Below are positions 32,845 through 35,891 of a stretch of DNA of 64,000 bases, in pieces. The stretch spans positions 62,001 to 126,000 of the forward strand of contig NZ_QUNO01000008.1 in NCBI RefSeq assembly GCF_003387475.1, in the 5' to 3' direction. Below the pieces are notes generated by a model. The model was not told the DNA's origin and did no database searches. It was given only the letters and a program-made list of their open reading frames with translations. Position 1 is the first letter of the stretch. Every line of letters begins with the position of its first letter. The stretch comes from Kutzneria buriramensis. Its GTDB lineage: Bacteria > Actinomycetota > Actinomycetes > Mycobacteriales > Pseudonocardiaceae. The position numbers and the translations under genes are program-made.

Positions 32845-33744
32845 GTGAACATCGAGCCCACTCCCGCCACCGGCACCGCGCGGGTCAAGCGCGGCATGGC
32901 CGAGATGCTCAAGGGCGGTGTGATCATGGACGTGGTCACCCCGGAGCAGGCCAAGATCGCCGAGGACGCCGGCGCCGTCGCCGTCATGGCGCTGGAGCGC
33001 GTGCCGGCCGACATCCGCGTCGAGGGCGGTGTCGCCCGGATGAGCGACCCGGACATGATCGACGGCATCGTCAACGCCGTGTCCATCCCGGTGATGGCCA
33101 AGGCCCGCATCGGCCACTTCGTCGAGGCCCAGGTGCTCCAGTCGCTCGGCGTCGACTACATCGACGAGTCCGAGGTGCTCACCCCGGCCGACGAGGCCAA
33201 CCACATCGACAAGTGGCCCTTCACCGTGCCGTTCGTGTGCGGTGCGACCAACCTGGGCGAGGCGCTGCGCCGCATCGCCGAGGGCGCGGCCATGATCCGC
33301 TCCAAGGGCGAGGCCGGCACCGGCAACGTCGTCGAGGCCACCCGGCACATGCGCCAGATCCGTGCCGACATCCGCCGGCTGACCGTGCTGGACGAGGCCG
33401 AGCTCTACGCCGCCGCCAAGGAGCTGCGCGCGCCGTACGAGCTGGTCAAGGAGATCGCCGCCACCGGCAAGCTGCCCGTCGTGCTGTTCACCGCCGGCGG
33501 CATCGCCACGCCGGCCGACGCCGCGATGATGATGCAGCTGGGTGCCGAGGGCGTGTTCGTCGGCTCCGGCATCTTCAAGTCCGGCGACCCGGCCAAGCGC
33601 GCCGAGGCCATCGTCAAGGCCACCACCTTCCACGACGACCCCGACGTGATCGCCAAGGTCTCCCGCGGCCTCGGCGAGGCCATGGTCGGCATCAACATCA
33701 CCGAGCTGCCCGAGTCCCAGAAGCTGGCCAGCCGCGGCTGGTGA
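32845..33744 (+). CDS. pdxS: Pyridoxal 5'-phosphate synthase subunit PdxS
   Basis: A 299-residue (beta/alpha)8 enzyme, with [45 protein letters not shown] at the start and the catalytic lysines (in MDVVT...AKIAED and [10 protein letters not shown]). It condenses ribose 5-phosphate, glyceraldehyde 3-phosphate and ammonia to PLP. The ammonia comes from the glutaminase PdxT, whose gene is usually adjacent but here lies 9.8 kb away at 43569. I chose the GTG at 32845 (AAAGG upstream, family-typical N-terminus) over an in-frame ATG 14 codons earlier. A palindrome TGGCCT...AGGCCA (32770-32789) lies in its promoter region. Confidence 0.96.
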
Positions 33745-33761
33745 GGCGACGCCCGACTCCG

Positions 33762-33795
33762 ACGGGCCCGTCCGGCGTGTGCCGGGCGGGCCCGT
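33762..33795 (+). terminator. GC-rich hairpin after pdxS
   Basis: A 15-bp stem (33762-33776 with 33781-33795, one G-U type mismatch) with a 4-nt GTGT loop, 18 nt after the pdxS stop. There is no T-run, as is usual for actinomycete terminators. It separates pdxS from the RiPP locus. Confidence 0.75.
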
Positions 33796-33821
33796 CCGTG
33801 TGTTCACGGTGTTTCAGGCGG

Positions 33822-33844
33822 TTGACTGTTAAATGATCCATTTA
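33822..33844 (+). promoter_or_regulatory. AT-rich promoter/operator region before the RiPP precursor
   Basis: TTGACT (33822-33827) resembles a -35 box. It is followed by a TAAATG-ATC-CATTTA palindrome (33830-33844). This is the only clearly AT-rich spot in the surroundings. A matching -10 at the usual distance is poor, so the exact promoter is uncertain; the palindrome may be an operator. About 170 nt of possible leader separates it from the precursor start. Confidence 0.4.
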
Positions 33845-34015
33845 TTCGCCCGGCGTCGCGGCGCTGCTTTCCCCTGTTGACCGTCGGTGGGTGCACGTTC
33901 ATACCCGCCCATTGCCGATTGAGTGATCGGGTTGGTAGACCTGGACGGGCCGCGAAAAACCGGCCACTGGGGTCCGAAGACACCCGGTTGATGGATTCCC
34001 GATGGAGGTGCTGTC

Positions 34016-34096
34016 ATGAAGCTCGCGTTCTTCCTGAAGAGCAAGCTGACCGGTCGCCAGAGCCTCAAGCAGTACGCCTGGTACCTCTGGTACTAA
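34016..34096 (+). CDS. Atropopeptide (tryptorubin-type) RiPP precursor peptide, core AWYLWY
   Basis: A 26-codon gene. It is preceded by GGAGG at 34004-34008, 7 nt before the ATG, a textbook ribosome-binding site. The peptide begins MKLAFFLKSKLTGRQS (leader) and ends SLKQY-AWYLWY directly before TAA. The last six residues differ from the tryptorubin A core AWYIWY, known from Streptomyces, only by Leu for Ile. Atropopeptides are made from such short precursors by one cytochrome P450 that forms carbon-carbon and carbon-nitrogen bonds between Trp and Tyr side chains. A P450 gene follows 85 nt downstream behind a hairpin. The mature product is predicted to be a crosslinked hexapeptide or a shorter or longer variant; leader cleavage is not encoded nearby. 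Confidence 0.9.
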   Translation: MKLAFFLKSKLTGRQSLKQYAWYLWY

Positions 34097-34125
34097 GCCG
34101 CTGAGCTGGTAGTCGGCCGACAAGC

Positions 34126-34163
34126 CGGGCCGGCGCTCCAGTCCGTGCCGGGGCGCCGGCCCG
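34126..34163 (+). terminator. Attenuating hairpin between RiPP precursor and P450
   Basis: Perfect 11-bp arms CGGGCCGGCGC (34126-34136) and GCGCCGGCCCG (34153-34163) with a 16-nt loop. The position between the precursor and modification genes suggests partial termination or 3'-end protection, giving more precursor mRNA than enzyme mRNA. Confidence 0.65.
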
Positions 34164-34181
34164 CCACGCTGGGGGTGTCTC

Positions 34182-35225
34182 ATGAGTATTTCCGAAACCG
34201 CCCGCATTTCCCGGGTGGCCGAGTTCGCGCCGCGAATCGCCGCATTGTTACGCGATTATTGCGGGCGGGATCTTGTTCGACTCGACCGGGACACCGTCGG
34301 GGTGGCCGGCCCTGCTCTCATGGATGAACTGATGCGCGCGCGGCCGGCCGATGAAAGGGAACGGCCGACGTTCAAGCCCCTGAACGGGCGATCCATTCCG
34401 CGCCGCGAGGCGGCCGCGCTCATGCAGGCGGTCGGCGCCGACGTCCGGTCGGCCCTGAAGAAGCCGCTCGAGGACGAGGTCGACCTGTCCGGCCAGTGGC
34501 CGCTGGTCGGGCACAACTACCTGCGGGACCTGGTGTTCGGCGTCGACCCGTACCGGCTCAAGGTGCTGGTGGACCGCAACCTGGAGCTGACGCCCAAGCT
34601 CACCTGGACCGTCATCGTCACCGGCGCGGCGCTGCCGGGGCGGCTGCGGCCGACCGATCCGGCCTCCACGGTCGCGGGCCTGTTCGCCAACGCCTCGAGC
34701 TACCAGCAGCGCCGGCGCGCGATGGGCCTCTACCGCCGGGTCGCGGCGCCGGTCTGCTTCACGGTGGCCGCCCTGGTCACCGGCGCCCTCTGGCTCGGGT
34801 CGCCGTTCGACGACGACGTGCCCAACGAGCATCTCCTGCTGGAGGCGCTGCGCCTGCTGCCGCCGTCATGGAACGTGCTGCGGCGGGCCTCGCCCGAGTT
34901 TCCGGCCATCGACGCGCGCATCGGCGCCGACGACGACGTGCTGCTGCTTCCGCTGCTCAGCCACCGCGACCCCGCCCTGTGGGATGCTCCCGACGAGTTC
35001 CGGCCCGCGCGCTGGCGCGACCTCGACCCGGAGACGCACCCCGGCTACCTGCCGTTCGGCCACGCCAACGAGCGGTGCTGGGGCCGGCACATGGTGATGC
35101 CGCTGGCCGACCGCCTGCTCACGCTGCTGCGTCGCGACGGCTACGCCGTCAGCCCCGAGCAGACCCGGGCCGAGGTCCCGCTGGCCGGCCTGATGGAAGT
35201 CGTCGGGGTGCGGGTGGTCCGGTGA
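34182..35225 (+). CDS. Cytochrome P450, predicted atropopeptide crosslinking enzyme
   Basis: A 347-residue P450, shorter than the usual 400 or so. The heme-binding loop is PFGHANERCWGRHM (Cys about 299) and the K-helix ExxR is EALR (about 221-224). The region preceding it (VAALVTGALWLGSPF) stands where the I-helix should be but lacks the usual AGxxT. An N-terminal part of about 120 residues is poorly matched to classical P450s. It follows the precursor peptide gene by 85 nt with only a hairpin between, so it is the likely installer of the Trp/Tyr crosslinks. Its stop overlaps the start of the next, decayed, gene (GTGA), so the original operon had at least three genes. Confidence 0.88.
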   Translation: MSISETARISRVAEFAPRIAALLRDYCGRDLVRLDRDTVGVAGPALMDELMRARPADERERPTFKPLNGRSIPRREAAALMQAVGADVRSALKKPLEDEVDLSGQWPLVGHNYLRDLVFGVDPYRLKVLVDRNLELTPKLTWTVIVTGAALPGRLRPTDPASTVAGLFANASSYQQRRRAMGLYRRVAAPVCFTVAALVTGALWLGSPFDDDVPNEHLLLEALRLLPPSWNVLRRASPEFPAIDARIGADDDVLLLPLLSHRDPALWDAPDEFRPARWRDLDPETHPGYLPFGHANERCWGRHMVMPLADRLLTLLRRDGYAVSPEQTRAEVPLAGLMEVVGVRVVR

Positions 35226-35890
35226 GCGCGACCCGGCCGGGCGGGTCCCGTGCCGCTCGGTTCGGCGATGCCGTGTTGCTCCGGGACACCGCCGGGCCGA
35301 CGCCTGGCTGGTGACGGTGGACGGTGTGCCGCAGTCCTATGTGGACATCGATGATCCCTCGCTGTTGGCGTTCGACGTGATGCGGCGGATCGGCGACGTG
35401 GTGGACTGCCTGCCGCCGGGACCGGTGACGGCAGTGCACATCGGCGGGGCGGCGTGCACGTTGCCGTGGTACATCGCGTCGCGGCGGCCGGGTTCCTCGC
35501 AGGTGGTGTACGAGCCGGACGACCTGCTGGTGGATCTCTTGGCGCCGAAGCTGGACACGGCGTCGGTGCCGGGACTGACCGTGGAGATCGCGGACGGCCG
35601 CGCCGGCCTGGCCGCCCGAGCCGACGCGTCGGCCGACCTGATCGTGCTGGACGCGTTCGAGTCGGGGCACATGCCCTCGGCATTGGGACGGTCGAGTTCG
35701 CCCGCGACGTCGACCGGGTGCTGCCCGGACCCCGCACGTACCTCGCGAACCTGGTGGACGACCCTGGCCTGGGATTCACGCGGCGGCTGGTCGCGACGTT
35801 CGGCTCGGTGTTCGACGCCCTGCTGCTGATCGCCGACGCGGGCGTGCTGGACGGCGCCGCCACCGGCGATCTCGTGCTGGTGGCGGCGGG
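35222..35890 (+). pseudogene. Decayed methyltransferase/spermidine-synthase-like gene
   Basis: The GTG overlaps the P450 stop by 4 nt. Frame 1 encodes VSATRPGG...AVLLRDTAG and then runs to a stop. One base appears missing near 35299, after which frame 2 gives AWLVTVDGVPQSYVDIDD...VHIGGAACTLPWYIASRRPGSSQVVYEPDD (the nucleotide-binding fold of spermidine-synthase-like proteins). A second missing base near 35688 leads to frame 3 (TVEFARDVDRVLPG...YLANLVDD). The frame then runs into the end of the convergent lactate permease gene without a natural C-terminus. Two frameshifts and a 3' truncation mean it is non-functional unless the frameshifts are sequencing errors. It may once have methylated or otherwise served the RiPP pathway, or be unrelated. 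Confidence 0.75.
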
Positions 35891-35891
35891 C

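Follow-up and report, generated by a model that had tools for sequence, protein, structure and literature searches.

Atropopeptides, the tryptorubin family of RiPPs, are defined by a class-specific cytochrome P450, a KSLK-type leader motif and a Trp at core position 2, and more than 650 predicted clusters are in print (PMC11450843; this and the other papers are cited from excerpts). Members of the bitryptide subfamily, xWxxWx, carry two core Trp residues spaced WxxW (PMC11450843), and biarylitides are described as having a five-residue precursor (PMC13417212). The leader recruits the P450, with the KSLK motif modelled as anchoring the core at the active site; a single P450 can form as many as three bonds, and release of the peptide falls to proteases from outside the cluster (PMC11450843, PMC12352619). 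Larger clusters with a second P450, a protease, or an acetyl- or methyltransferase have also been reported (PMC11450843). The published finder, CoreFinder, needs only two neighbouring aromatic residues in the core in its first round, and in its second round accepts six motif strings, among which, as excerpted, QSLK does not appear (PMC11450843).

We analysed a 64,000-nucleotide stretch of the Kutzneria buriramensis genome (the window; contig NZ_QUNO01000008.1, positions 62,001 to 126,000), in which a first-pass annotation had proposed an atropopeptide locus: a 26-codon gene with a ribosome-binding site, ending in AWYLWY directly before its stop codon, and a P450 gene. The small gene and its GGAGG were found as described (Table 1). 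The locus is almost certainly a minimal atropopeptide cluster, its P450 acting as the crosslinking enzyme for the neighbouring precursor; seen directly were both genes, the family to which they belong and their joint occurrence in relatives.

Table 1. Features of the atropopeptide locus and its surroundings (positions within the window).
Feature	Position	Strand	Details and basis
Precursor-gene ribosome-binding site, GGAGG	34004..34008	+	sequence; 7 bases 5′ of the ATG
Atropopeptide precursor gene	34016..34096	+	26 aa, MKLAFFLKSKLTGRQSLKQYAWYLWY; NCBIfam NF038372
Leader peptide, residues 1-20	34016..34075	+	cut site placed by analogy to other precursors of the family
QSLK, variant of the KSLK motif, residues 15-18	34058..34069	+	sequence
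Core peptide AWYLWY	34076..34093	+	sequence; stop codon directly after
Atropopeptide-modifying cytochrome P450, 347 aa	34182..35225	+	PF00067; tree
Block missing from the pdxS-lactate permease interval of four genomes of the genus	33745..35891		collinear flanks of L117-L120; ends approximate

All three published defining features were found, the motif as a variant. A class-defining P450 lies beside the precursor, as judged from the P450 tree, where the P450 of the characterised sva cluster falls in a neighbouring clade, and from the pairing in relatives described below. The core AWYLWY has Trp at position 2 and the WxxW spacing of bitryptides, and the KSLK or closely related motif is present in the wide sense only, QSLK sharing three of the four letters. 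The length of the precursor, 26 aa, speaks against a biarylitide. The NCBIfam model NF038372, "tryptorubin family RiPP precursor", matched the precursor over all 26 positions with 42.8 bits (cut-off 33; E 4.7e-11), and Pfam models gave no match to this small ORF. The single match of NF038372 in the whole 12-Mb genome was at the precursor place (E 8.8e-9), and a search of 14 control genomes gave none. Three of 100 relatives matched, the own genome included, and a same-genus genome with the core AWALWY was not reported by this search, which shows that the curated model does not catch every member. The gene had been expected to escape standard annotation; this was not borne out, since this model exists and the CoreFinder method cites records labelled 'tryptorubin family RiPP precursor' (PMC11450843).

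Both ORFs are open, each with a plausible ribosome-binding site, and sequence comparison placed GGAGGT at the same distance from the ATG as in the window in the loci of Pseudonocardiaceae bacterium YIM PH 21723 (L004) and Kutzneria sp. 744 (L009). The two genes are 85 bases apart; the corresponding gap in 80 relatives has a median of 112 and a range of 49-210 bases, with P450 starts chosen by script. A scan of 33700-35600 for promoters of the sigma-70 type found none (0.1 expected by chance). The precursor codons of the window and L004 differ by 10 synonymous changes (stop codon counted) and 6 non-synonymous ones, and the core codons are identical. Non-synonymous changes exceed synonymous ones (stop codon counted) in the comparisons with L009 (9 to 3) and with L123 (6 to 3), one non-synonymous change falling in the core each time. 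This excess would, as a reading of the codons, weigh against an atropopeptide cluster, and the place of QSLK outside the six finder strings and the missing sigma-70-type promoter count against it as well.

A P450 scan with one genome per species turned up 121 relatives, and 80 of these were retained. A precursor like that of the window lies upstream of the P450 on the same strand in 80/80, one of them (L063) without a core; the profile used in this search was built from 16 of the 80 loci, which match by construction. Elsewhere in the own genome, 30 further P450 loci, each represented by 1.5 kb beside an often partial match and thus with shorter upstream cover than in the relatives, gave no match to the same profile. 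These controls came from 76 P450 matches; of the 30 loci taken, 12 passed the filter and 10 entered the tree. A draw of 297 family genomes yielded 10 with the P450, among them those of the window, L004 and L009, and the precursor was present in 10/10. The peptide is thus conserved with the P450 in relatives, and on this count the first-pass annotation was not refuted. There is practically no chance that the small ORF is an accidental reading frame beside an unrelated P450: it is very short and without a Pfam match, as such a frame might be, but the NF038372 match and the pairing in 80/80 relatives versus 0/30 controls rule this out. At about 5.9 kb of L063, from Amycolatopsis echigonensis, the precursor ends in KSLKYYA, a leader without a core beside a full-length P450, and Streptomyces sp. 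A 4/2 has two atropopeptide loci (L012 and L031), with the cores AWYIWY and AWYGWI.

The P450 had been called unusually short; its length is normal for the family, since in 78 of the 79 relatives whose ORF is closed it lies at 335-370 aa, most commonly 348 (script-chosen start). The Pfam p450 model (PF00067) matched it with E 1.7e-11, covering residues 220-306 only. All 80 full-length rows, those of 79 relatives and of the window itself, share the ExxR residues E221 and R224 and the heme Cys, C299. The heme loop that the first-pass annotation called intact reads FGHANERCWG, in keeping with the form FG[HP]x[SND]ERCW[GA] of the full-length rows, and not the textbook FxxGxxxCxG, which none of the 80 rows shows. 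The motif [AG]Gx[DE][TS] was likewise found in 0/80 full-length rows versus 7 of 12 control P450s. Judged from the aligned sequences, both absences are traits of the whole family and not of the window gene. At 95 of 96 near-invariant family positions the window P450 has the family residue, the exception being M51. It is 84% identical to its nearest relative found (L123), 77% to the P450 of L004 and 59% to that of the sva locus (L058). The best 60 of 148 matching sequences of solved structures align with C-terminal parts only, 9ulw_A leading with 43.4 bits over residues 208-335. The model for the aminopyruvatide P450 ApyO (NF050147) gave 62.4 bits, below its cut-off of 525, and the other listed NCBIfam P450 models also remained below cut-off. 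In Xanthomonas cucurbitae (L050, 6001-7035) the family P450 has an internal stop codon, and the precursor reads through to SWYIWY.

All retained relatives but L050, which was excluded for its stop codon, entered the P450 tree (79 of 80), together with the window and the 10 other own-genome P450s; L123 is absent from it. It was a quick tree with SH-aLRT values and no bootstrap, and the long branches of the controls leave the position of the root within the family uncertain. The window P450 groups with L004 and L009 (SH-aLRT 97); next outward comes a 17-row clade with the sva locus of Streptomyces varsoviensis and AWYGWI/V cores (SH-aLRT 93), and then five AWYIWY rows join (SH-aLRT 100). It thus lies within a 25-row clade (SH-aLRT 100) that contains the characterised sva locus, among atropopeptide P450s and not among unrelated ones, in agreement with the first-pass proposal.

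The replacement of Ile by Leu had been presented as a special trait of the window core. This was ruled out, as 15 of the 80 relatives also encode AWYLWY (22 encode AWYIWY) and the tree implies at least nine changes between Leu and other residues. Over 79 rows, which omit L050 and L063, W2 and W5 are invariant; position 4 takes eight residues with at least 22 changes on the tree, Leu accounting for 20 of the 79 rows. The only core without Tyr-3 among these rows is AWALWY of Kutzneria sp. 744 (L009, 5843-5923), the product of which cannot have the Trp-Tyr bond, because Tyr-3 carries that bond in three-bond members. At the leader motif, KSLK is found in 65/80 relatives and QSLK in one (L016). Precursors with QSLK, TSLK, KNLK or RSFK, which occur in four of the 80 relatives and in the window, escape the motif list of the second CoreFinder round (PMC11450843).

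From characterised relatives, a helical leader with its KSLK-type motif would be expected to dock on the P450, AWYLWY being threaded into the active site, where the enzyme would link aromatic side chains of the core; host proteases would free the hexapeptide and probably also the des-Ala pentapeptide. By this analogy, the product is probably a Leu analogue of tryptorubin A with three bonds, which would be a Trp-Trp C-C bond, a Trp-Tyr C-N bond and a Trp-backbone C-N bond closing a pyrroloindoline. Its predicted formula, derived by hand, is C49H52N8O9, with [M+H]+ at 897.3930 and the des-Ala form at 826.3559. The first-pass rule of about 2 H lost per crosslink would give 895.38 for three bonds, an expectation that could cause a missed peak; the rule fails for varsorubin B1, which has three bonds for four hydrogens lost (PMC11450843), and we read that compound as indicating that pyrroloindoline closure would cost no further 2 H. 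Because three bonds would cost 4 H as in varsorubin B1, the Leu product and the Ile compound would be isobaric, and mass-based dereplication could mislabel the former. By comparison with relatives, the product may also form a cage with non-canonical atropisomerism (bicyclic, P-ansa configuration); scabrirubin and varsorubin B2a are without a cage, and non-canonical atropisomerism is missing in some members (PMC11450843).

These exceptions bear on another reading of the cluster, namely that it makes a simpler product with a single Trp-Trp crosslink (-2 H) and no bicyclic cage, perhaps cut back to WYLW or WYLWY. We hold this to be rather unlikely: scabrirubin and varsorubin B2a are monocyclic, SvaB alone gives both simple and complex products (PMC11450843), and the sva locus lies in the clade neighbouring the window P450, but the des-Ala core differs only by Leu/Ile from tryptorubin B (WYIWY, three modifications), and most characterised atropopeptides have the cage (PMC11450843). 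It is less likely still that the pair is intact but silent or decaying and makes nothing in its host. The P450 is patchy in occurrence (2/7 same-genus and 10/297 family genomes, own included), the core is lost in L063, the P450 of L050 has a stop, and the next ORF downstream of the pair in the window is broken up among several frames, all of which would fit a unit falling out of use; against this, neither gene is interrupted, each has a plausible ribosome-binding site, and the P450 has kept the family residues listed above. A three-bond Leu analogue stays the preferred reading. We found no described product with AWYLWY or WYLWY in open-access PMC full texts (supplements lie outside these, and WYLWY was judged by title), and Kutzneria and atropopeptides were mentioned together there in unrelated passages only. 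The locus is a probable source of a Leu analogue without a description found in these texts.

The block listed in Table 1 comprises the two-gene unit and a downstream fragment, a broken ORF (35250-35890, +) running through several frames. This fragment resembles a polyamine aminopropyltransferase; Pfam found nothing on its pieces, and similar stretches occur in 37 of 60 genomes, own included. The upstream gene, ending at 33744, is presumably pdxS-like, judged from its sequence; past the broken ORF, the other strand carries the gene for a lactate permease (PF02652). Pfam matched six of eight neighbouring ORFs (CDP-alcohol phosphatidyltransferase, NUDIX, lactate permease, enoyl-CoA hydratase, alginate lyase and AzlC), the two without a match being the downstream broken ORF; other neighbours were judged from the ORF list only. 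None of the six matches was to a second P450, a protease or an acetyl- or methyltransferase, the gene kinds of larger clusters, and further tailoring genes were rejected on this basis.

Six other genomes of the genus were compared at this site. Four of them (L117-L120) show pdxS and the permease gene in the order of the window, with 85-94% identity, and the roughly 65 to 590 bases between them hold neither precursor nor P450. One of these four is Kutzneria sp. 744, whose own atropopeptide locus lies 2.3 Mb away; in the other two genomes (L121 and L122) no permease match was found in the flank compared. The space between pdxS and permease in L117, L118 and L119 has a common sequence (75-78%) with a minus-strand reading frame, of which the window shows nothing beyond short, chance-like matches. 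Directly after pdxS, L117, L119 and L120 show a near-perfect inverted repeat (94-98%). L004 and L009, with 6 kb flanks, match the window at 34004-35219 and 34004-35232, respectively, with a single 53-base match outside these stretches, and L123, with 1.5 kb flanks, matches at 33962-35211. The collinear sites that lack the unit and the confinement of matches to it indicate that about 1.25 kb was acquired, lost or exchanged in one piece, whichever the direction, and the within-genus site comparison is a small case of such an event in a RiPP unit. Whether the unit also travels as a self-contained cassette among Pseudonocardiaceae, between unrelated sites, with core position 4 freely exchanged to give a set of tryptorubin analogues, is a tentative idea that we hold possible but somewhat doubtful. 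If true, close relatives would make tryptorubin analogues, the Leu and Ile ones being isobaric and easily confused by mass.

The locus is an ordinary, well-supported member added to an already known RiPP family. Its nearest counterpart with an identical core is L004, where AWYLWY is encoded beside a P450 of 77% identity with a gap of 79 rather than 85 bases; the leader differs at 6 residues, and within 13 kb there is no similarity to the window beyond 34004-35219. The aminopyruvatide P450 ApyO and the biarylitide P450s resemble the family in making aromatic crosslinks in a ribosomal peptide, but their precursors differ. The sva cluster of S. varsoviensis (varsorubins), with a P450 59% identical and in the neighbouring clade, has the gene order of the window, but its core is SWYQWL and not AWYLWY. 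The try/trp and lau clusters of Streptomyces (tryptorubins A and B) pair, like the window, a precursor with a family P450 and end in a C-terminal WYxWY, but have Ile at core position 4 where the window has Leu; lau possesses a second P450 besides, unlike the window, whereas the tryptorubin A cluster has the same two-gene layout (PMC11450843).
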